Shown: one piece after another, positions 3,092 to 57,978 of the stretch
Layout of the letters: the number at the start of each line of letters is the position of its first letter
Position numbering within the stretch: position 1 is the first letter of the stretch
DNA from: Paramecium tetraurelia
Taxonomy: Eukaryota; Ciliophora; Oligohymenophorea; Peniculida; Parameciidae
DNA: 64,000 nucleotides
Assembly (NCBI RefSeq): GCF_000165425.1
Contig: NW_001799628.1
Span: 186,001-250,000, forward strand
Reading direction: 5' to 3'
Translations under genes and position numbers: made by a program
The notes under the pieces: model-generated
Databases searched by the model: none
What the model was told of the DNA's origin: nothing
Seen by the model: the letters and a program-made list of their open reading frames with translations, nothing else

Positions 3092-5176
<2,085 letters not shown>

Positions 5177-5690
5177 TATATTATGTTATTAATGTTGTAC
5201 AAATCTATATTTCTATTTTAAAAATACATCTATATTCTAACATAAATTAATGTAATTTTAGAATTAATTTCATTTATACTCATAAATTATAATAATATTT
5301 TGTAATTCTATTTAGTTTATATTAAATCTTTATTATTTCCATTGACTTTTATTATTTCTCTAAGATTAATATTAATTATGTTTATTTTAATTATGATAAT
5401 TGGGAGTATCAAGTAGATAGTTTAGAATTTCTTATCTCGCAAATAATATTCTAACTTGTAAATAATATCTCCCAGGCATATTATATATTAAATGATAAAT
5501 AAGTAATCCAAATAATAAACTATAATTATAAAAAAAATCAGACACAATTTAGTGTATCTTATGCTTATTTTTGATAATTATTTAATACAAAGAGGATATA
5601 AAAATAGATTTATTTTTATTAAACTAATTATCAAGACTGGGGAATTCAAAGGAAGAAGCTAACTATGAATATTAACAATTATATATTTAA
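5177..5690. other. Intergenic between convergent genes
   Basis: Hsp70 (plus) and the SAM-FHA-RING gene (minus) end toward each other here. The stretch is almost pure A/T with homopolymer runs and should hold both 3' ends. No ORF or structured element is visible. Confidence 0.6.
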
Positions 5691-35584: not shown

Positions 35585-37350
35585 TCAACCGTCTCTTTGA
35601 TCTCCAAAGGTTTCTTATGGTTCCTCTTCTCCTTGACGACCAGATTATTATTGCTTCTTTTTAATTCCTGACACAACATCATCAATTCTCAATAGCATAC
35701 AGGCTGACTCGATGGCAGTTTTAAAAACTTATCTAAATCATTAAATAATTAATATACTTTTTTACAGATAAAGGTTCCCAAACATTAATTTCATTCATCT
35801 TCGCAATTTTTCCAGTATTTCCATCAACTCCAAAAAATAATCCTCCGGTTTCACTATGTTTGGCTCTTAATTCAGTCAATATTCTGACAGTGTCAGCTCC
35901 ACAATTGGCAGAGAGTGTTCTTGGTATAATTTCCAAAGCATAGGCAACTATTAAATATATAATTAGTAAATATACCAGCTTTATATGGCAATTGACCCAA
36001 TCCTTCAACTTTATTTGCTTTTTCCAACAATCTAGCACTAACTTCCATTTCAACAGCTCCTCCTCCTGGTAATAGTTTTGGATCTTAATAGATATTTTTG
36101 GCAACTGCTAAACAATCATGTAAATTTCTTTCCTAATTATTATTATTTTAAATAAATACCATTTCATTCAAAACATCTTTTGATGCACCTGCTCGAATAT
36201 GATAGAGCATGCAGTTGGATTTTAGCAATCTACAAAGAAAGCGAAATAATCATCTCCAATTTTTTTGACTTCAAATGTTCCACATAAAGTACCAACATCA
36301 GTTTCTTATAGTTCTTCTGGTCTATTGACAATAGTGGCACCTGAAACTCTAGCAATTCTTGTGTTGTCGGTCTTTCTGACTCTTCTAATGACAGAGACAT
36401 TTCCTTTTAATAAAAAGTGTTAAGCCAAATCTGAAACTCCTTTTTCTGTAATAACAATATCAGGTTTGTGTTTCAATATATCATTACACATAAGGGCAAC
36501 CTCATTAATTTCTTATTAGAGTGCATCAGTCATATCTGATTCCTTTGTCATTTCCATATTAGTCATAGATTCACCTTTCTTGTATTCCAATGTGCAATCC
36601 AATAATATAATTCTTGGGTTCTTGATTTCTCTTCTCATTCTTGGATGAGTAACATCTTTATTAATCATGACTCCTTCAAGTACAGAACTTTCTTCAAGAG
36701 TTCCTCCTGGTATTTTTTCTACCTTTGCATACCTCTTAATTTCTAAATTCAATTTATTAATATTTCCTCCTCTAAGAACTATTCTGGTTGCTTATAAAGA
36801 GAGATCACTAATTAATGTTCCCCATCTGAATGCAAATTTAGTACCAATACAAGATTGTAATGCTTTCATAACTTCTTCTTTTTTGTCGGTGTCTATTTAT
36901 TATGAAATCTCATCCAAGATCTTTACAGAATCTTCCAAGGCTCTGAAATACCCATTAACAATTTCTGTTGGATGAATATTCTTTTCAATGAATGGTCGTG
37001 CTGCTACCATCATTTCACCTGCTAATATGATGACTGATGTTGTTCCATCTCCGACTTCTTCATCTTGAGCCTTTAAATTCTTAGTTATTAAAATATACTC
37101 TTGCTAATTCGATCATACTCTTTGCTGCTGGATGCTAAACATCAATCTCTCTCAAAATTGCATTTCCATCATTTGTCATTACAATGCCGCCCATTGGATC
37201 AAGTAACATTTTTAACATTGATCTGGGTCCAAGAGTAGTCAATACGATATCTGATACAGCTTTGGCTGCCTAGATATTTCCTAATTGAGCTTTTCTACCC
37301 TATTCTCTTTTTGTGTTAGCATTCACCACAATCACTGGAGCTCCTTACAT
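35585..37350 (-). CDS. CCT3: CCT3, gamma subunit of the cytosolic chaperonin TRiC
   Basis: Group II chaperonin subunit that folds actin and tubulin. Motifs: [62 protein letters not shown], and the C-terminal WEPLSVK...[20 protein letters not shown]. Gamma identity rests on [20 protein letters not shown] with [15 protein letters not shown], on the region around CQNPTACS, and on the Gln/Glu-rich tail. Introns: 37071-37098 (28 nt), 36133-36156 (24 nt), 35948-35975 (28 nt), 35733-35757 (25 nt). The coding length is one base short of a whole number of codons; the break lies near 36190-36210, where one base is missing after CSII and the frame resumes at [12 protein letters not shown]. Confidence 0.9.
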
Positions 37351-41850: not shown

Positions 41851-44800
41851 TCAATTTTAAGCTTTTTTTTATAGAATGGAATTTAATTTGTCTGCAATTT
41901 TTGAATCGAGCATTAAGTTTTGTTTAAGTTGTTACAAATCTATGGCTTAATTTGGTTAATCTATAATGTCATCTTACTAGTCTATTTCACTATAATCATA
42001 TTTCTCAATTGCATGATTTAACTAATCTTCAAATTGCTAGAATTCTGGATCTTCCATTTCAGTCTATTTCTTTGAAGGTCTTGTAGTTGATTGCAGATCT
42101 AAATCTTCAACTATCTGGACATTATCTGTAAAAATAACACCTTCAGCTGATCGTTTAATCCATGGTGCTTCTGGTTTGTTTTCAACTACGGTTGGCTAAA
42201 ATTGTATATAATTTCATTTATACACTAATTGTCTCAAGTAGTTTATCATCGAATTTGGTAGTCATTTCTGGAATCTCTACTGTGGGCAAACAAAAAGATA
42301 ATCTTAATTATAGATTTTGCTTATATTTCTTCAAAGGTAACTTAACCATAGGATAGATCGAGCATAATCTATTGTGTTAAGGGAAGATGATGAATTCAGT
42401 CAACTTTGAAAGCTCAGAATTGATTTCGCTTTTGGGGTTCTAATCTTCCTTCAATAATTAAATGAATAAGGAGAGGTGTTCTTAGATTTCTAGCTATTAA
42501 ATGTTCTCCTGTAATTGTTCTAAATAATGAAGTGCAGAATCAGTCTATCCTAATAGTAAATGGATTGCAGATCTATTGAAATAATATTCAAATAAATTGT
42601 AGGTTCTATCGCTGAATTCAAATTCTTCCAAGGGCTTGCTTTTATATTCCAACTTCTTATGTGTTTGATTCAATTGATCTAAAATATATTAATCAGAATC
42701 ATTCATAGACCCTTATTCCTTTTTCTATTACTCCTCCTTAATTTTATATGATTCTCTCATTGCCTATTGAGCACTATCATATTATTTTAAATAGAACTAA
42801 AATAAGCCCTTGTAAAATAGAATATCTGATTTCTTGAATATCCTCCCTTCTGCTCCTTTTTTTAAAATTTGATTTGCACACTGTAGAGCCTCTTAAAATA
42901 GATTCTAATCATTATTTGCAGTTGAGGTATTTTTTAATTACTAGAGGAGATTTAGATCTACAATGGCATGAATATCATTGGATTATTCTACTATTTTCTA
43001 TAAATCAAGCATCGAGCTATTTAACTCCTTTATTACGATGTATGTTTTTGCTCTGAAATATAGCACTTATAAGCTTTTTTCTGAACTGATGCTTTCAGAA
43101 TAGGATTGAATGGCATCTTCATATGCTCCTATCTAAAAAAACAAATTCCCTAGGAGAATGTCAGTTTGTGGATCAGTTTATTTACATTCTTTGTATTTTT
43201 GAGCATCGTAATAAGCACTTTTCCTATCTCCCAATGATAGAAACACTTTTGCTCTATTTAAATAAGCATCCAAAAGTTTCTCATCTAGATTTAATGCTAT
43301 TGTTAAATCATTGACAGCTGGTTCAAATGCTTCTCTACATGCTTGTATCAACCCTCTCACATAGAAATGTTTTGCTACATGATCTTCTGACTTTTCGATT
43401 GCCTTATCTAAATCAATTAGGGAATCATCTAATCTCCCTTACGCAAAAAGAACAATTCCCCTATAAAATAAGAGATTGGATTGCTCATTGATTTTGACAG
43501 CCATGTCCATGTATTTAATGGCATCATTCAAGAATTTATTCTTTTTTTCTATGTCGTCCTTTGGAATGAGATAACTATAGAATTTAACTAAAGTGGTGGC
43601 TTTATAAAAGTAAGGTTCCATTTTATTGGGCACTAACTTTTAAGCTTTTAAAAAGTATCCCTAAGATTGTTCAAATTAGTTAGCAACAGCAGCCAGAATA
43701 CCTTCAGCGATAAGTTTATTATAAATGGAGGGTTTTTCAAGGGAAGTCAATTGATTGAGATCATTAAGTGCCTTTTAATACTATGATTGACAGAAGTATC
43801 CATAGGCTCTATATTAATAGATGAGTGGTTTCAGAAAATCTGTAACCTAGTGTTTGGTAGTGAGTGTTGTAAGAGCCTCTACTCCTTCATCAAATTTACG
43901 TTTCATTAAGAATGTGACTCCGTCAGTAAAGATCTTGAATTTCTCTAAAATCTTCTCGTCTACATCTAGATAATCAGCACGACTTAATTGATAAAATGCC
44001 TCATAAAAGTCTCTTTGTTCAATTTTAATTTTAGCAATTTCATATAGAGATTTAGACACTGCTTTTTTTGAGTTGTTGTGTTTGATTGATTACTCATAAG
44101 CAAGGAAAGCTTCTTGAATTTGATCTAGAAATAAAATGATAAAATAGCTTACTTTTTTTAGTACAAATGAAACCTTTGATGTAAAGTGCCTCGGAATCAC
44201 AGTAGTCTTCTTCCAACACAGCTTTAATGTCTGAAAGAGCCAAGTCATATTCTTTTAAATCAATATATAAAAGAGTTCTTTTAATAAGGGCTTATCTGAA
44301 GGAGGAATCTTGACATTCAATAGCTTGAGTACAAGCTTAGACACTTTATTTTGGTTGGTTCATATATCTGTAGCAATCAGCTTAGCCAATATAAGAAATG
44401 GCCTTTTTTGGCTGTATTTCAACTGCACAAGTAAAATCCTTCAAAGCGCGATCAAATTATTTCATTTTCAACAAAAGTTTGCCTCTATAAATATACGCAT
44501 CAAAATATTTGTTAAATTGTTTGATTGCAAGAGTTAACTATAAATTTAAATGAATAAAAATACAGTGTTTAAAGCATCGTTTGGACAGTTTGATTTTTTA
44601 TAGGCAATGGCTAAGAGAATGTAGGCATTTCGTTTGTAGTGTGGTTGTTGTTAAATTAAGAGACTAAGATCTGCTATGGCTTCGGAGAATTCAGATTTGC
44701 TCAAATGACATAGGCCATTTAAATATCTGGCTTCTGGGTTGTTGCTGACTTAGAGAATTTCCCCGAAGAGTTTTTGTGCTTCTTCCGTTTAACCCAAGCT

Positions 44801-45628: not shown

Positions 45629-47324
45629 ATGGGATGCGGTTCAACCAAGCCAGGGGATGTAAATAATCCTCAATAAAGTAATATCTTAAATCCATATATG
45701 AGTCAATGACAAATCTCAATTGCGTGTGACATCTCTCAATTTGGTAACTGAAAAGATTGGGCAGATTTCGTAAGATTATCATCTTCTGAAACCTTCCTTA
45801 GGAAAAGGTAATTATCATGGTCCATCCTCCCTAGGTGCTTACGGAGAAGTTCGAAAGGGCATTCACAAATTAACCAATCAAACCAGAGCTGTGAAAATTA
45901 TCTCAAAAGAAAAGGCCAAAAAGGCTGACATAGAACGTCTAAAGGAAGAAGTTGATATCCTCAAAAGATTGGTATGTTTAGTTGTCTCATATAAGGATCA
46001 TGCCAATATTATAAAGATCTATGAATTTTATCAGGATAATAAAAACATGTATATAGTTACAGAACTATGCACTGGAGGAGAGCTCTTTGATAAGATCTAA
46101 GAATCCAGTTCGTTTTCAGAACGAAAAGCAGCAGAAACCATGAAACAAATCTTGAGTGCTGTCAATTACTTGCATAAAAGCAAAATAGTTCATCGGTATG
46201 TATTTGGTTGCAATTATTTCTAAAAGTGATATAAAACCAGAAAATATCCTATATGAATCTTCTAAGCCAAACGCCTTACTCAAAATAGTCGATTTTGGGA
46301 CATCTCGCTTTTATGATCCAGACGTAAAAATGGATTAAAAACTTGGAACTGTAAATCTATACCTAATCTAGCCATACTACATTGCACCTGAAGTATTGGA
46401 AAGGAAATATGATGAAAAATGTGACATTTGGTCTTGTGGAGTTATTCTCTATATTCTACTCTCTGGAACAGCTCCTTTTAATGGTGATGACGACAATTTA
46501 ATAATGGAGGCTGTGAAAAGAGGATTCTACTCATTCGACACTGAAGAATGGAGACTGATTTCAGTCGAAGCCAAAAGATTGATATCAAAAATGCTTGAGA
46601 GGGATCCCAAAAAAAGGATATCTGCTGAATAGGCCTTATAAGATGATTGGATTACAACTTACGTGAAGAAACCAGAAATAGACCTACCTTAATTGACTAG
46701 AGTGTTAAATAACATGAAAAATTTTAATGTTGAAAAGAAGTTCTAAGAAGCTGCTCTTACATTTATGGTCAATTATTTAGCAACTAGTTAAGAAAAGTAG
46801 GAATTATTGACATAATTTTAAGCATTAGATTTAAATGGAGATGGCAGACTAAGTAGGGAAGAACTAGTTATAGGTACTTCTTGCATCATATATTTCAATA
46901 GGTTATTCCAAAGTTATGAGTTATACTGATGCTGAAATTGAGGTTGATAAATTAATGAAGCAAATTGATTAAGATGGCAATGGTAGCATTGATTATTCTG
47001 GTAATTTATGGTTGTTTCTATGTATTTAGAATTTGTTTTGGCTACTTTTAATAAAGTAAAATTGATTGAGGATAAAAGGTTGGAGTAAGCCTTCAAATTG
47101 TTTGATAAGGATGGAAGTGGTACCATATCTATTGATGAAATCAAACAGATATTTGGACAAAATTCTTAGGTCTCAGAAAAAGTCTGGAAGGATCTAATAT
47201 AAGAAGTTGATTAAAATGGAGATGGATAAGTAAATTGTGTTTTAATTAGATCGAATTTAAAGAATTCAAAGAAATCATTGTCAAATCTATTTAAAATACT
47301 AATGATATTGATGACAAGAAATGA
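45629..47324 (+). CDS. Calcium-dependent protein kinase (CDPK)
   Basis: A 496-aa CDPK. The N-terminus [10 protein letters not shown] has Gly2 and Cys3, a myristoylation/palmitoylation signal for membranes. The kinase domain (~55-320) has [11 protein letters not shown] (split by an intron), [40 protein letters not shown] and [17 protein letters not shown] junction helix leads to four EF-hands: [36 protein letters not shown] and DQNGDGQIEFKE, all with good Ca ligands. Eight introns (20-31 nt) leave exactly 497 codons. Ca2+ releases autoinhibition. In Paramecium, CDPKs act in ciliary and exocytosis signalling. Confidence 0.93.
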
Positions 47325-47453
47325 AAAACCTTTTATATTTATTATTATTTTGCAAACAAGATTTTATTAATTATTATAAATTTTGTTATTTTTATTTAAC
47401 AAATGCAATTCAATTTTAGAACTTATTTATAAAATAATAATTAAACGTGTATA

Positions 47454-50400
47454 TCATATTTTTTTATATTCTGCATTTTTCTCATCAAATTTAGTTTTCC
47501 ATCTGTTAAAGTAGCTATCATTAGCTTCATTGATTGGATATTCCCCAAAAGACAGTACTTCATTTAGTAAATCCTATTATTCCATCTATTTTACAAATTG
47601 AATGGCTTTGAGGGTTTCAGCGTATTTACCTTGAATATTAAAATGATAATACTTAATTCCTTCGTCAAATTCATTTCAATATTATATGAATCCTTAATAA
47701 AATTGATCTTTCTATGGACCTCTCTCAATTGCAAATATTACAATTCTGCACAGAAACCGTAAATTATGTTTTGAATAAACATTTATAATAATTCATCTCT
47801 ATTGGCTATTATAATAATTAGGATAATTTTACTTGGATAAACACATAATTATTAGAGTCCGTTGTATTAAATTTGGAAATCATAATTGCTTAAAAGCCAT
47901 TGATGCATTTTGATCAAATTATTAATGTATTCGGACTAGGAAAGATTTGCAAATGCATCAAAATTGAATTGAATGAAATTCTGAATGTTGTTACCAAAAC
48001 TATTCCACACATTATCTTCCAATTAGAAATTGCGATCCACTTCAAAAATGTTCATCGAAGCTGCAATACCCTGAATGCTGAAACGACAGAATCTTAAATA
48101 TTCGATCAAACAGATGTATTAAAATAAGGATATATTATCTACGTCTCTCTTGAGATTAAACCTTTAGCCACCTCCTTATGTTGATTTTCCATCGAAATTG
48201 GATGTTTAATCTCTTTGGATTGTTCTGTGAGGAGAGAAAGTTTAATTTTATCTCATCATCTAAGCAGATTATACAATTGAAAAATAATCAGAACTTTTAA
48301 TTGATTCGGCTTTGGCAAACAATTGGTTAAGTTTGGTTTCAAGTAAAGTGTAGGGTTTGAAACTCTGGAAAAATTACTTTAGTTTTTTATGATATCCTAA
48401 TTGCTGACTGTATTATCCCATAAAGGTGTAGATAATCTTGTCTAATTGTCTTTTGAATTGCAATCTCATGTTTTTGCATAAGATCAATTCAAGCATGAAT
48501 TAAGTGATTTGAGACAATTCAAAAAAGAGCATGTAACTCTACTAATAAGTTTGAATGTGCTTAAGTGTTAATCCAGTGACATCTGTAAATTGACGAAGAG
48601 ACTAATATTATTATGTTTGATCAATTTAAATGATTGCAGAATGCATTCTTTATTCATGAGAAGACAAGAATTCCAATATTGATCTACATTAAGTTTGATC
48701 ATAGGCTAATAATTCTCTAACCAATACAAGTACATGACACCACATCGAGTGTTTGTGATTGTATTGGCCATTCTCATTCGAATTGTAGATTTGTTCATCT
48801 GCAATAAATGTGAGTTGTTTCAAATATCTCACATCAATCTTATTTGAAATATTGAAGGTGATTATGTCTATCCAACATTGGATGATCGATTAGAAAATCT
48901 TAGAATTATTTTGGTTCTTTAATGCTTCTAGTTGTAAGTTGATAATATTATAAAAGCCTTCGTTTGGTTTATTTAACAATTCTGGATTTGCTGGGTACAC
49001 ATTTAATATGACTGATAGAATTGATGATAATTATCCTATGAGTTCTTTACAATTTGGATCATTGAAATCGATTTACAATATGAAATAATGGAAGACTTGC
49101 ACCAAATCTTAAGGCTCTTGCAATTCATTTTCTTTCACACTTTGTAATATCAGTAACACGGAATGGAAACAAGTGAACAACACTTACCTATATTTTCCTT
49201 TGTATTCATTATTGCAAACAGATTTCAATTCCAAAATTCGTTTGAAGAAGTAAAATTAATGTTAACTCATATTGTTTAGCTTTTCATATGTCATTAAGGA
49301 TGTATCTTTATTAGAAACTACACTCTTATATTTGCAAACTACTTATTGAGTATACCAACATATTTGGTTTAATACTTCTATGGCTGGTATCATCAACTCT
49401 TCATGAATTTTGATGGTATCAAGTACAAAAATGCTTTAACTTGCTTTTTGTAGGAAATATAATGCAGCATTGAATGCATATTCAGTTTCACTTAACTAAT
49501 TGTCTTCCTAACCAAATAGTTTTACTACTCCTCCTTCTATAATATCCTTCCCATGATTAGGTGAGAATATTGAATCTCCAAGCTCAATTTCTTCATATAA
49601 ATCTTTTAAATAAATGTCACTAAAAGCAGATCCTGTCAAACCAATTGAAAAGAAGAATTACACAAATTAAGATAATTAATTAAATGTTGATAAGAGTTAA
49701 GTAAACCATGATGCCATTATATTAGATTTTTATATGGCAATTGCATTTCCACCAATGTAATTGACAGTGTTGCTATCAATTTAAAAGTCTCGACCATAAC
49801 TGTAAATGTAATTGGATAAATAATTGAAAACCAAATTACTTTTAATTACAGGAGTACGTCTTAAGAATTTAGCAAATTCAATATGGTCACTGAATTGTAT
49901 CAGTATCAAATACCACTCTCTAATGAAGTTCTTTTAAAACATCGATTTGATTATTTCTGAAAATGCCTTTGTTGTTTCCTTTGATTCTTATTTCATTTCA
50001 TTTATAAGTAATTTGAATAAATACTCTAACATTACTAGTTCTTCTATTGAATCTAAAATACAATTCTCAATGACACATTATTCTATTGCTGTTCCTGTTT
50101 CTCTAGTAATATATAACTTAGCATTCTGGTTTGATAAAAATTTAATTAATTTTTCACATTTTTTATTTAAAAAAAATTAAACCTCTTTGCATAGTTTAAG
50201 CAATAATGAGGCATAAGTTGTCCTACATTCTTTTGCAAATGATTGATATCTGGATTAATTTACACACAGAACTTAATGAAAGAATACTAAAACCAACATT
50301 GGTATTCTATAATCTTATTCTAATTCATCATCATAACCAAATATATTTTGGAATAATTCTAATATGTACTTGATGCCTGAACTTAGATTTGGATTTTAGG

Positions 50401-53400
50401 ATTTGAGAATGTATTGCATAAATGATTAATTATTTTCAAGACTGATTATTAAGAACTCCAATATTTCCTATTTTTCAATTAAATAACATCTCTTATCTAG
50501 TCTATTTAGTATAGTGTGAAGACTCTAAAAGATTAAATGATGATAATGTATTCTCTTATTTAATAATTAATTCTCCTCTGTTTCTATTGTTGTTATGCTC
50601 TATTCCAAATTATAGTTCAATAATGGTTTTGACAACAAACGCAATGCACTTGTGAATATCGTACTTTGTTATGGTAAGTTCCTGTCTAAAATTTGATGAT
50701 AATTTTTGAATTTCATGTCATCATATATTTATTTGAAGTTTCTTTGTTCCATGTCTTCAAAATCAGGAGGATCTTAACAATTGCTTTAAGGGTCACTTAT
50801 TGTATTCAATAATCCCAAAATAGAATGGATAAAATTCAATTTCACTCTGTTATTAACATAACCATTAATATCTTGATGATATGTGCTGACTATCTGTTAT
50901 AAGAAATATTGTTCTTCTTGGAAAAACTAATGTAATTACTTAACTAATTGTAAATTGTTGCTAAAGGTTTCATCATAGATGGAATATAAATCAATAAGAG
51001 TGTTCCAACAATCAAGTAAATTGATCAATAATGAAGTCACATGAAATTTCAGCTTGTCAAAATTTCTGACTTGTTCATACAACTTATTTTTAATCCCAAC
51101 CATATTAATATTATTTGATAATTGCTTTTATCCAATATCTTCAAAAAAGGAGTCTGTTAAAGTAACATCTAAATTCGTCAATAAAAATTCAAGAATCAAT
51201 TAACTATTGATTTCATTCATATATTATTTGATTAGACTATGCAATTATGTTTCTTTGTATTCTTTGGTGTGATAAAACAAAAACTTCTTCAAGATCTTTT
51301 GCAATGCTAGATACATACTTGACTAATATTCAATGGTGACTTCCATCTTATCCTCCTCGAATATTTTCCACTCCTATAATTGAAATCTTAGGAAGGTTTC
51401 AAGAGTGTTTTTCACAAAAGTATGCTATGTTTATTGATAATAATGATTAGTGTTTTATTATTCAAATAATTGCAAAGGATTGTCCTACCCAAATATTGCA
51501 CTGCATAATTAAGCATAATTCAAATGAATTCTAATGACTTACTTAACCTTGAATTAATAAGATGCTTAACACTTCCTTGCTATATGGAACAGCTCAAATA
51601 ATGGATGATAAGAGAATCCTTATTATCTCTAAATTTATTATTCATTGGTAGACAATTTGTTTATTTCCTCAGCCATCTCTTTTTAAAGCATAGGATCTTC
51701 TAATATAAAATTGATAATCTATATGGCTTCTGATCCTATTGTTAATAGGTTATTGATTAGTTGAATAGCTTTCTCTTCCTCTTTATGAGTATCAATAATT
51801 AAATCTATCAATCTTGAACATTCTGATGTTACTTTAAGGATCTATCTATTGATGTTATTTGAACTGCATAATAAAGCAATTCTTTTAATGGATGTAGCTT
51901 ATTTTTTTACTTCACCCTTAATGAATTTAATTGCATGCTTAAATTTGTAAACACTCACTCCTAAATTGTCTATACCCATTGACAATGTCTTGTTTTTCAA
52001 TTTATTTTACTCATTGTAATAATCCATAGAAGCTCTATTACTTTTACCTAAGAAATCAGATGATTTATAAAGATTATTTGTCAATTTCCCTTCAGAGAAA
52101 TCCCGTATCATATTGTGTAAGCTTTGGAATTGATTGTGATCGTCTGCCAATAAATCCAGGGTCTCATTTTAATTAATCTTACGGAAGACTTTCAATTTAT
52201 TCAATCTATCAAAGATGATTTGTTCAGTTGTATCAATTTTTTTAACAAGGACATAAAACATATCCCATAAGGAAGGTAATTGTAACAGAATTGAAAATAT
52301 CTTTGATAAGAGTTCAACTTCATCATCATACTCATCTTCTTAATATTTATTCTTGTAACATCTAATCCATTGATATATACAAGTGCACGCAGAACTCCAA
52401 AAATGGCTATTTATTGAGGCATTTTCCAATACTCTAAGTACTTCTTCGAAGTATCTCAAACTAATCTCGTAATCATTTTAATTTTAGACATCTTTACCCT
52501 CCTACAAGATAATTGCAATCTAAAAGATCTTTTGAATATAATCTGGCTGTATTTACTTTATTGCTTCAACCTTGTTAATCCATAAGGGAGGAAGAGGATA
52601 TTCCTCTTCCTCAGCCTCTATTTCCTAATATAAAGGTCTGATGCATAAAGATAAAACGAAAACGAATGCTATTTTTTTGTATTCCTCCTATAGTTTTGAT
52701 GCTAAAGGACTATACTCTTAGAATACTAGATGTTCATTTTTATGGAACAATCCTAGGAATTGAGTGGTTTTCATGTTCTCTATGAGTTTCTAAACGGGTT
52801 TGACATATAATTCTTCAAATCTATCAATTTTAAAGTAGCGCTATAAAATTGTGAATATCTCAAGGATTTGTGTTTATTCTGACACGAAATGTTGTAAAGT
52901 CTAAAAGGTGTATTCTTCTGAAAAGTATTCTTGCTTTAAGTAGAAATTTAAGGCAGCAGGCACACTCAAAAATGAATTGGCCAATCCCTCAATAAGTCCT
53001 CTCTTAAACATATCATTTAAAAATTTTGAAGGTTTTCCAACATCATCGTCTTCGATTAAGTTAACAAGCATTAATTTTAATCCAGCAACCAATTATGACC
53101 TTTGTTCAGCATAATGATTAAAAAATATATGTTAGAACTTTTTAATTTCATTTTCAAAAAACTTACTTTTTTCTGGTGCTTTCTATTTTCTTTAGAATTG
53201 ATCATTCAATATCTTAACTCTTGATGCTTACAAGCTGTCTTTTAAGACGTAATAAACTTCACTTTTAATCTTGTTATCAAAACATTTGGTTCTAATTTCC
53301 TAATCAAAAGGGGTATCTGATTGAAGTTAGACCTTATTATCTGAAAATGAAAACCAATTAGATCCTTAGATCATAATCTTATATAAATTATCATCTTCTT

Positions 53401-54750
53401 TAAATAGACTCTAAATTTTAATATCATCTCTACAATTCAAAACTTCCATAATTTTATAAAAATCTCTATTTTTAGAAAGGGGTAATTATAATTTTTATTA
53501 AGGTGGGGGTTAACTTGCTGGTTACTACTGAGCTGCTGGGGGTTATTGAGATAATTGCGTAGTCTATGGAACTAATGGTTATTATTGTGTAGGTTATAAT
53601 AATGATGAAGTTTATTGTTGCGGTTATTAGACGGTTGATTACTAATTTGGTTATGTTCCAATTTAGATGATGCTTGGTGTAGTTTAAGTTGTTGTTGGTT
53701 ATTAGGTGGATGGCTGTTAGGTAGTTGGTTGTTAAGCTGGTAGTGGTTGAGCTATTGGTTAAGCAGGTGGTTATGCTGATGGTTGTGTTGGTGGTTATGC
53801 TGTTAGCTATGTGGGTTGTTATGCTGGTGGTTTTGTAGATGGTTAAGTCATCCAATTTGAGCTTGTTGTTTGCTATTATTAAGGTTGTGTCAAATTTTAT
53901 AGGCTGCTGGTTGGATTAGTAAATAAATTATTTGAAGTGCCCAATGGACTTGCCTAAGGTTGACTAGGTTAGGCTTGATTTGTGCCTAGTGTTGTTGTGC
54001 CTAAAGGATTTGAAGTGGGAGGTGCTGAGGCTGGGTTTTGGAGGTTTAAAGGAGCTGATGCCGGATTTTACGAAGCTATAAAATTATTGTTATTTAAAGA
54101 TGGCTAAGCATTATTTGGTTATAATCCAAACAATCCTCCACTTGTTGCACCTTATCCAATACTCTGAGTAGTCCCTGCTCCTAATCCAGTTGAAGTGACA
54201 TTATTAAATGCGCCTAAACCTGTGGGGTTAGTTGCTATTGGCTAGGCTGTATTTGGTTGAGTGGGTTAAGCCAATGGATTAGGATTTAGACTTGGAAACA
54301 AACCCGTAGAATTGTTATTTGCTTATGGTGGTTGACCACCCAATGGTTATTATGAAAGAGAATCTAAACCACTCAATCCTGTTTAATTTGGTTAAGGAGC
54401 TGCACCTCCAAATAGTGGTTGTTACTATTAAGGAGGTTAGGCTCCTGCTTATGTTGCTGAGAAAATATTGTTATTATTTGGAGCATTGTTTCCAAACAAA
54501 TTTCCACTCGGCTATGCACTCCCAAATATATTGAGGGATGATGGTTGAGCTCCTGATGCTGCTTACTAAGCTCCACCCATATTACTCTATTAATTAAAGA
54601 TAGCCCCTTAATTCTACGTCTATCCATTTGAATTAAAAATGGCTGCTGATGTGCTTGATGTTTAGCCAAACAGATTGCTCTATGGATTCCCAAAAATTCC
54701 TGCTTAACTGAAAAATAAACTAAAATCACTTACTTATTTTAAGAGTTCAT
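47454..54750 (-). CDS. Giant FG-repeat plus alpha-solenoid nucleoporin (~2,414 aa)
   Basis: One frame links two halves. Residues ~1-430 are an FG-nucleoporin region poor in charge and rich in Gln, Asn, Pro, Ser and Thr: GIFGNP, SNLFGQ, LNIFGSA, GNLFGNN, QPLFGGA, GGLFGLQ, plus AAIFN and GAIFN. Without a stop it runs through SKNRDFYKIMEVLNCRDDIK into ~1,980 residues of continuous alpha-helical solenoid ending EKNAEYKKI. Introns: 54708-54733 (26 nt) and 47806-47832 (27 nt). The coding length is two bases over a multiple of three; a frame break lies near 47660-47685. From memory, Tetrahymena Nup308 has a similar FG-then-helical layout; Nup205/188-type scaffolds are the alternative for the solenoid alone. 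It should sit in the nuclear pore. Confidence 0.78.
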
Positions 54751-55752
54751 TTTTAATTATTTAAATTTATGAATATAAACAAAAAAGGGAAACACTTCAT
54801 ATTTTTTTTATTGCACAAAAAGTCAACAAAAACTCATATTCTCAATAAAATGTATTCTAGAGTTTTACACCTAAATTTTGAATCACAGTTAAACAATCCT
54901 TGACCTTCAGGCATTTCCCTAAAGAATTATTTCACTAGCCATTATATCTCGACTTATACCTATATCATTTGTATTATTAAATCTCTAAGACTCTATAATC
55001 TATCTACATTATGATGATTTAAGAGATTTCAGGTTGATATATCTCAATTCAGATCATTTTCATGAAGACAGATTTGTATCTGAATGATCATTGCCAATTT
55101 TCAAATCAAGCTTTTAAAAATGTATCAAGAAATTACTGTAAATAATCCTTTGATCTTAATTAACATAAACTATAAATTATTAATAATTTAATCTGAGCAG
55201 ATCAGCAGCTTAATTATAGGATTATCTTTTCATACTTATTGCTTTGTTAATTAATAGAAGATTAGGCTAAACTGTTAACTAATTTAATATTGCATTTCAT
55301 CAATATTTTATTAAATTCAATCTCTCTAATCTATAGGTCCATCAAATTTCTAATATCATGAAATATGAAAATATTTCGAAAATAAAAAGAAAATTTCTAC
55401 TATTTCTCTTCCTACTTTTCAGCAATCTCACTTATATTTTCTACTAAGTGTTAAAAACCTGCATTCTTATGGTTTAATGGTTATCAATTGGCTAATAAAG
55501 ATAATTCTCATTAAAATTTGAACTTTAAAATCAATATTAAAATATTTGAATATTTTAATTTTCTTATTAACTTAAAGTAAAAAGATTTTCATTTATTAAT
55601 AATGAATTCTTAATATTTAATTAATAAATTAAATTAATTAAACAGATTTAATTATTTATATTAAACTCTACTCTTTAAAATTCGTTAATAAAGAGGTTTT
55701 AAATTTTTTTTATTATGAAAAAATTAAATTTTTAAACAAGATAAACAATTTT
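54751..55752. other. Longest intergenic stretch, nothing recognised
   Basis: About 1 kb of A/T-rich DNA between the 5' end of the giant nucleoporin gene and the 3' end of the ankyrin kinase. Short open frames occur on both strands (for example near 54945-55100) but lack starts, splices or motifs. Confidence 0.5.
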
Positions 55753-57978
55753 TCAAAAGTCTGTATGAACATAGGACCATCCATGAATATGAGAGGATAG
55801 GTTCTGATGTTCATTTTAAAAAAGATTCTAACCAATTTATGTATCAATTTTTATTTTTCTGGTTGGCTTAGGAAGTTCTAATTCTTTGTTTTTGACTTTT
55901 TCCCAATCAACATCTTGAAAGTATGGATGTTGCTTGATTTCCAAAGAATCACCAACTCCTGATCCCAATCTTTTGATAGGATTTCTTTTGAGAAGCTATT
56001 TAGTGAAATAATATTTACTAGTTTTATTAAATTTCTACCTTCAAAAGAAATGAACGAAGGAATTTTAAGTGTAGCATTCTCAATATTGTCAAAGAGCTGA
56101 TCCTTTTCATTATCATAATAAGGAGGCACTCCAACTAACAATTCATACATGACTACTCCAAGTAAATACCAATCTACAGCTTTTCCATGGCCTTTTCGTT
56201 TAAGCATTTCAGGGGCTAAGTAAGCAACAGATCCACAAAATGATCTAGCTCCTTGACTAGCATGAAATATGCCCTCCTTTGAAAGTCCAAAATCAGTAAG
56301 AATAGCATGCCCATCAGCATCAATAACTATGTTTTCTGGTTTAAGATCTCTATAAATAATATCTCTTTAGTGCAAATCTTCCAAAGCAAGGATTATTTCG
56401 CAGATGTAATTTTTGACTTATTCTTCTGGAAGTCTTTATTCTTCTTCCAAGAGTTATCCCAAGTCTCCACCTGGACAATAATCTAGCATCATAATCAATT
56501 TATCTGTAGTTTGAAAGGCGTATCTTAACTTTACTATAAAGGGATGCGAAGTCATCGATAAGACATTTCTTTCTGTTTAAGCATAGGGAAATAAATTTTG
56601 TTCTATATTAGGTTTATTACATAGATTTACTTAATACCATGATCTTGTCCAACACCTTCATTGCATATAATTAATTTTATCTCTTGACTAGATAGACTTG
56701 ACCGAAACTACCTTTTCCAATTAAACCCAAGATTTAAAACTACGATAGAGATACATCATCTTCTTTAATGTTTTTACAAGATTCAGAGTAAATGGTTGAG
56801 AAGGTTTGTTGTTTTTTCTGCAATTAATTTTTAAATTATTCAAGCTATTGTAAGGTTGTTTATAATTATTTTATTTTTGGATATGAATCCTAAATCATCT
56901 CTAGATTGTTTGAAGACTTGCATTTTTAAATTAAATTTTTTATCGATTTAATATTTTTTCTTTAAAACATTTTTAATATTGTTTCGGTTTAAGTAGTTTA
57001 AATTATAACTTCTTTCATTCGTTTTTCTAAACGTATTTTTATATTTTTACAATTTGTCTATTCCAAATAGTCTGCAAATATCTGGGCGATCTCTGAATCC
57101 TCAATATAATAATCTGGATATTATGACTCCTGATTTTACAACAGGATAAGATGCGATTTTTGAAGTAAAAATTGGACAATCTATTTAAAATTAAACTTGC
57201 ATGCATAATGGAGAGATGAGTTGCCATAAATATCTTGATGGTTGATGTTGGCTCCCAAATTGATTAATATTTATAAGGTTTCAAATTTCCCACTAAGTTA
57301 ATATATATAAATTAAGTACTAATAAGCACTCAATAGTAAGGGTGTCATTTTATCTTCATTCTATGTATCTATTTGTATATCTTTGTACAGGAGAGCTTGT
57401 ACAAGATGGGTATTTCCATTTCTGGCAGCGTAATGAAGAGCTGTGTTGCCATTTTAATCTCGCGAAGAAACCGAAGCACGAAGGTTCGAATTTACCTTTG
57501 CTTTAGGTGAAAGATTTACTAAATTCAATATGATATAATTACACAGGTTGTGAACCAATGGAGGTTCAAGAAATTAGAGACAAGCTCCTGCTCTATTACA
57601 TGAGCTTTCCTTCAAAAATTGTTCGTTCAATTATGTCCTTAGTTTTTCTATTCCCTCTTGTTTTGGACTTTTTTATTCAATAGTCAGATGATAGTTCTTG
57701 ATTTCGCATTGTTTAAACTCTTCTTCCAAAGATTGCAGTTTAGTCAACTTGGTCATTTTTGAAGTGAAAGGAAGATTCAAATTTTGATAGGATTTGGCGG
57801 ATCTATTTGAAAATAGTTTTGGTTAGAACTATTTGCAAGTCAAATGTATCTTTGGGATAAGTATTTTCATTTTTTTTTAAGGAGTAAGAAATTTATTGGA
57901 TTTGGGACTTCTGTGTTCGTGGATTTATCTCTATTTTGTTTGATATTCAGAAAGAGTCAATTTGCGATGACTGTTCAT
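55753..57978 (-). CDS. Ankyrin-repeat AGC-family protein kinase
   Basis: A single 715-aa frame. N-terminal ~190 residues: basic, Gln/Lys-rich. Residues ~195-300: ankyrin repeats ([54 protein letters not shown]). A coiled-coil linker (IQDSYPKIKQLQTTLQQLEQ) follows. Then an AGC kinase domain: [98 protein letters not shown]. Introns 57293-57319 (27 nt), 56603-56630 (28 nt) and 55996-56018 (23 nt) leave 716 codons. Kinase class is nearest S6K/SGK/AKT-like. The region between the ankyrins and the kinase has no TGA in frame, so this is one gene. ATG 56898 could start a kinase-only form. Confidence 0.85.

Follow-up and report, generated by a model that had tools for sequence, protein, structure and literature searches.

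Can a single gene carry both the FG repeats and a giant helical scaffold of the nuclear pore, and if so, to which branch of pore proteins does it belong? A locus on contig NW_001799628.1 of Paramecium tetraurelia raises this question, and we analysed the 64,000 nucleotides around it (positions 186,001 to 250,000 of the contig; hereafter the window, whose own numbering is used throughout). A first-pass annotation, made from the letters of the DNA, had singled out the locus on the grounds that FG repeats and large scaffolds normally sit on separate nucleoporins. The combination is not unique: the Nup98-Nup96 (Nup145) precursor is a classic case of an FG head and a helical scaffold made from one gene.

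On the minus strand, from 54750 to 47454, we find a single predicted gene with a spliced product of 2406 aa, whose sequence makes sense only if TAA and TAG are read as glutamine and TGA is the sole stop (code 6). Its parts are listed here, with reference to a second copy of the gene, the paralog, that is described below.

54734..54750, minus strand: exon 1 with the start ATG of the candidate FG-scaffold nucleoporin gene; start and splice position are common to the paralog.
54708..54733, minus strand: intron 1, 26 nt (25 nt in the paralog), GT...AG; the 1-nt length difference shifts the frame unless the intron is spliced.
47833..54707, minus strand: exon 2, about 6.9 kb, from the FG head into nearly the whole solenoid; 0 TGA in 2,286 codons.
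47806..47832, minus strand: intron 2, 27 nt (26 nt in the paralog), placed by comparison with the paralog.
47653..47805, minus strand: exon 3, from the gene model.
47630..47652, minus strand: intron 3, 23 nt (25 nt in the paralog), placed by comparison with the paralog.
47454..47629, minus strand: exon 4, ending in the TGA at 47456-47454, from the gene model and the paralog.
53855..54750, minus strand: FG-like head, residues 1-290, with intron 1 inside the span; 13 Phe, 6 of them in FG and the others mostly in FN, FS, FT or FP, with 12 of the 13 kept in the paralog.
53495..53854, minus strand: Q/P/T-rich linker without Phe, residues 291-410, from composition and the list of Phe; dN/dS 0.31.
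47454..53494, minus strand: solenoid predicted to be helical, residues 411-2406 and the TGA, with introns 2 and 3 inside the span, from paralog identity, dN/dS and periodicity.

Exon 2 holds all codons except the first 6 and the last ~109, and its coding frame (47834-54691, code 6) is free of TGA, compared with 50-88 TGA in each of the remaining five frames and a mean of 42 (minimum 27) when the exon is shuffled 200 times. We preferred the spliced model to the naive code-6 open reading frame at 47141-54580 (2479 aa), which starts at codon 49, crosses introns 2 and 3, and ends with about 170 wrong residues that are intron 3 plus out-of-frame sequence, the true gene end being 47454. The gene is real and was correctly bounded in the first-pass annotation, whose ends at 54750 and 47454 coincide exactly with the ATG and the TGA after removal of the three short introns. 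Its reading of an FG region that runs into a solenoid without a stop is likewise borne out, as the head, the linker and the start of the solenoid share one exon.

Searching the organism's own genome (231 contigs, 69 Mb) with the gene returned five matches, namely the gene itself and four pieces that lie at a single place on another contig (paralog L002, contig C201). The paralog model (2416 aa) shares the layout of the window copy and has introns at the matching three positions, but the intron lengths differ between copies (25/26/25 nt against 26/27/23 nt), so that both frames hold only with the introns spliced out. DNA similarity between the copies continues for about 190 bases 5' of the ATG and for at least 450 bases 3' of the stop, where the compared stretch ends, as expected if the duplicated segment is larger than the gene, and the two copies are presumably whole-genome duplicates. 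With dS between them at about 0.9-1.0, the pair offers a view of how selection acts along the protein. The solenoid is under strong purifying selection (89% identity over residues 411-2297; dN/dS 0.059 over residues 411-2406), while residues 1-410 are 61% identical with a dN/dS of 0.315.

The same comparison bears on whether an FG-protein gene and an adjacent solenoid-protein gene have been wrongly read as one. Such a reading could point to a Met (M426) close to the start of the solenoid, but residues 411-427, which extend upstream of this first solenoid Met, are identical in protein between the copies while their codons have changed silently. More broadly, the alignment of the copies over residues 395-440, which span the junction, contains no TGA, and dN there is 0.03-0.05 against dS at 0.35-0.38. 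Silent-only change upstream of M426, together with the lack of TGA there, argues against two separate genes, as do the absence of TGA throughout exon 2 and the presence of the fusion in both copies, and we regard a misread gene pair as hardly credible.

The head itself is sparse in FG, with 6 dipeptides in 410 aa. A region of about 430 aa had been proposed; we measure 410 aa, and all 13 Phe fall within residues 11-268, leaving the roughly 140 residues from 269 to 410 rich in Q, P and T with zero Phe, but an FG-like head is present and its FG content exceeds that of shuffled sequence. In the window copy 6 FG dipeptides stand against 1.1 expected (as many in 0 of 2000 shuffles), and in the paralog 7 against 1.3 (shuffles, p 0.0005); GLFG occurs just once in the window copy. 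The wider motif [LIVMA]F[GNSQTP] takes in 12 of the 13 Phe in the window head, where shuffling predicts 2.1, and occurs 11 times in the paralog head, although the window-copy solenoid is also slightly rich in it (19 against 13.3 expected, p 0.06). FG motifs are thus enriched in a disordered region, as in FG nucleoporins, in modest number. A Pfam scan of the window head gave Nucleoporin_FG as its sole match, at an insignificant E of 4.7. Conservation singles out the Phe positions: the paralog keeps 12 of 13, compared with 222 of 368 other aligned head residues (Fisher p = 0.02), and the copies differ in the residue that follows Phe at several positions, such as GIFG/GLFP and GLFP/SLFG. We also note that the paralog head carries, at residues about 194-226, a stretch of repeated GTGLGTGL units without a counterpart in the window copy; one of the Nup98 loci discussed below, the LFG-type locus L009, has a similar stretch.

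Downstream of the head, about 1,996 aa (residues 411-2406) are predicted to be helical, from hydrophobic periodicity and low-confidence structure models. The first-pass figure of ~1,980 aa of helical solenoid is close to this length. In composition the region is solenoid-like (Pro plus Gly 4%, large hydrophobics 39%), and its 100-degree hydrophobic periodicity is 0.268 against 0.212 +/- 0.008 in 20 shuffles; residues 1-410 have no such periodicity. AlphaFold2, given two-sequence alignments of the window copy and the paralog, yielded models of residues 411-1460 and 1111-2297 with mean pLDDT of 34.1 and 32.2, a pTM of 0.24 and every residue below 50, which are too poor for fold assignment and for recognising the question-mark-shaped solenoid of Nup205/Nup192, though 66-69% of residues were modelled as helix with a median helix length of 14-15. 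Foldseek comparisons of these models list mixed solenoids, including karyopherins, Ctr9 and condensin, among the best 50 of 313 and of 618 matches. Within the matches listed, none for the first-half model reached E <= 0.001, the four that did for the second-half model were all CRM1, and yeast Nup192 stood at rank 32 of the best 50 for the second half. We give these lists no weight, because low-confidence models yield meaningless matches.

Which solenoid might this be? In length (about 2,000 aa) and helical character it resembles NUP205/Nup192. The profile of that family, PF11894 (Nup192), matched nothing at E <= 10, whether in the open reading frame, in the solenoid or solenoid halves of both copies, or in the C-terminus of the window copy after splicing, whereas a stretch of human NUP205 used as a positive control matched it at 5.9e-81. 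When both copies were compared with human NUP205 by hhalign, the score was 19.8, within the range of 16.9-26.9 given by one reversed and six shuffled controls. The profile check against Nup205 that had been suggested for this gene therefore found no link. Profiles can fail in distant lineages: an HMMer search reported in the available part of PMC2951903 gave Trypanosoma brucei Nup205 an E of 0.96. The full Pfam scan, covering the open reading frame, the solenoids and their halves from both copies, and the head and spliced C-terminus of the window copy, found nothing significant; we judged the sub-cut-off matches to DUF3045 (0.0049-0.047), REP_ORF2-G2P (0.021-0.046), DUF5360 (0.094) and Nucleoporin_FG to be chance or uninformative. 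Against PDB sequences, the open reading frame gave five matches (E 0.49-9.2), all inside the Q/P/T-rich stretch, and a two-sequence profile and the spliced C-terminus gave none. Own-genome searches with PF11894, PF04097 and PF13634 were without matches, but control genomes were equally silent, and these searches are therefore uninformative on absence. No relatives were found in the contig collections viral_contigs and genome_contigs.

The closest published parallel is Nup308 of Tetrahymena thermophila (TTHERM_00091620), a protein of 2675 aa with GLFG repeats in residues 1-570 and a helix-rich remainder (571-2675). According to the available part of PMC5450191, Nup308 was recovered in a GFP-TtNup93 pull-down, was placed with Nup205 with a bootstrap of 72%, and was assigned as a Nup205 ortholog in the Nup93 complex, present equally at macronuclear (MAC) and micronuclear (MIC) pores. 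In the same text the FG addition is called unusual and unique to Tetrahymena, Nup205 orthologs elsewhere being without FG repeats, and the authors suggest that the repeats make up for an FG-poor Nup62. The Paramecium protein has the same order of parts in another ciliate: a disordered FG-type head (residues 1-410) lies directly before a single very long helix-rich region (411-2406), with helicity judged from periodicity and the low-confidence models. Set side by side by published description, the sizes are similar (2406 aa here, 2675 aa there). The heads differ, as that of Nup308 consists of 570 aa with GLFG repeats, whereas the Paramecium head has 410 aa, 6 FG, one GLFG, several FN, FS, FT and FP, and a Q/P/T linker at its end; the presence of two gene copies in Paramecium is a further difference.

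We think it likely that the gene is a Paramecium-type counterpart of Nup308, an inner-ring scaffold of the Nup205/Nup192 kind that has an FG head of its own. The first-pass annotation had suggested the same counterpart; order and similar size agree with the part of PMC5450191 available to us, but orthology to Nup308 or Nup205 gained no sequence support. That the protein would work like Nup308 is suggested by its layout and by selection, with orthology to Nup205 unproven. Calling it a ciliate-specific pore component was too strong, because Nup308 is assigned to Nup205 in that text, which makes the added FG head special and not the scaffold. The layout is already published for Nup308, and the gene is most likely the counterpart of that known protein rather than something new. 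Our literature search found no paper on a Paramecium counterpart of Nup308, though most subscription journals lay outside the search and such a paper may exist. A meeting abstract (PMC4519060) reports that, in both Paramecium and Tetrahymena, an FG-nucleoporin antibody stains the transition zone of cilia as well as nuclei; it names no nucleoporin gene.

A pore protein of this layout could also belong to another branch, either as a Nup188-like protein or as a lineage-specific solenoid with an independently acquired FG head. The failure of Pfam, PDB and hhalign to link the protein to Nup205 would fit such an origin, and the placement of Nup308 itself depends on the 72% bootstrap; but size, order and head-solenoid layout resemble Nup308, and no Nup188 candidate was found in Tetrahymena in the 2017 account (PMC5450191, available part), so that we consider another branch unlikely. 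Among other alveolates, the Plasmodium berghei protein called Nup205 (PBANKA_1140100) is likewise a large nucleoporin, with FG regions flanked by helical domains, but in the part of its description available it was named for its mass and not for homology to NUP205, and no orthology is claimed. Distinctly unlikely, in our estimate, is a large helical (HEAT-like) protein with no role at the pore, in which a prion-like Q/N/P-rich head contains a few LFG motifs. It would account for the small number of FG dipeptides, the insignificant Nucleoporin_FG match and the assorted solenoids that Foldseek lists for the poor models, but not for the motif context of 12 of the 13 Phe, for their conservation in a head that evolves faster, or for the resemblance to Nup308.

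The Nup98-Nup96 type of precursor, with an FG head, an autopeptidase and a Y-complex solenoid and cleaved into two proteins, deserves mention as the classic combination of FG and solenoid in one gene. In Tetrahymena, MicNup98B and Nup96 share one transcription unit (PMC5450191, available part). A Pfam scan of the Paramecium protein found no Nucleoporin2 autopeptidase domain (PF04096), a domain that five loci elsewhere in the genome do have, and this disfavours such a precursor; its solenoid of about 2,000 aa is moreover far longer than Nup96. A cleaved precursor therefore seems very improbable.

Should the Nup308 reading be correct, the helical solenoid would form part of the inner ring and serve there as a hub for partners of the Nup93 type, the FG head would extend into the channel by means of the Q/P/T linker, and the conserved head Phe could bind transport receptors and one another, adding to the permeability barrier. 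By analogy with Nup308, the protein may be present at the pores of both nuclei. An FG-bearing Nup205 would then be no oddity of Tetrahymena but would have existed at least since the ancestor that this genus shares with Paramecium; in our reading the FG-bearing scaffold probably predates Tetrahymena. The scaffold has hardly changed under selection, and in the head Phe is retained more than the residue that follows; because the duplicates hold their Phe positions while the remaining head drifts, they provide a natural test of which part of the FG motif matters. One could also speculate that each copy is nucleus-specific, with diverged heads on near-identical scaffolds, one tuning macronuclear and the other micronuclear pores. 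We see this as a long shot, but if true, nuclear identity would reside in the inner ring itself, in contrast to the single Tetrahymena Nup308 reported equally at both nuclei.

The five autopeptidase loci (L006-L010, on contigs C2, C228, C158, C206 and C153; PF04096 at 4.9e-24 to 1.8e-12) differ in the repeats that accompany them. In repeat-bearing open stretches, [LI]F[NQS] outnumbers FG at L007 (11 against 2), L008 (8 against 1) and L010 (16 against 3), and the balance is reversed at L009 (1 against 7). At L006 one repeat-bearing stretch, in a frame different from that of the autopeptidase, has 9 against 2, and a second stretch 4 against 4. This split parallels the Nup98s of Tetrahymena, in which the micronuclear forms carry NIFN and the macronuclear forms GLFG.

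Several other genes share the window. Convergent with the candidate nucleoporin gene, at about 46800-47200 on the plus strand, sequence that looks EF-hand-like by eye may mark a putative calcium-binding gene; a domain scan of the minus-strand open reading frame at about 46800-47200 was without a match. Farther away lie an HSP70 gene (3144-5342, plus strand; PF00012, 2.6e-232), a TCP-1/cpn60 chaperonin fragment (36171-37013, minus strand; PF00118, 1.3e-60) and a TPR-repeat protein of 688 aa (42185-44248, minus strand). Just upstream of the candidate nucleoporin gene, at 55431-57978 on the minus strand, overlapping open reading frames encode ankyrin repeats and a protein kinase domain and are perhaps one intron-bearing gene.
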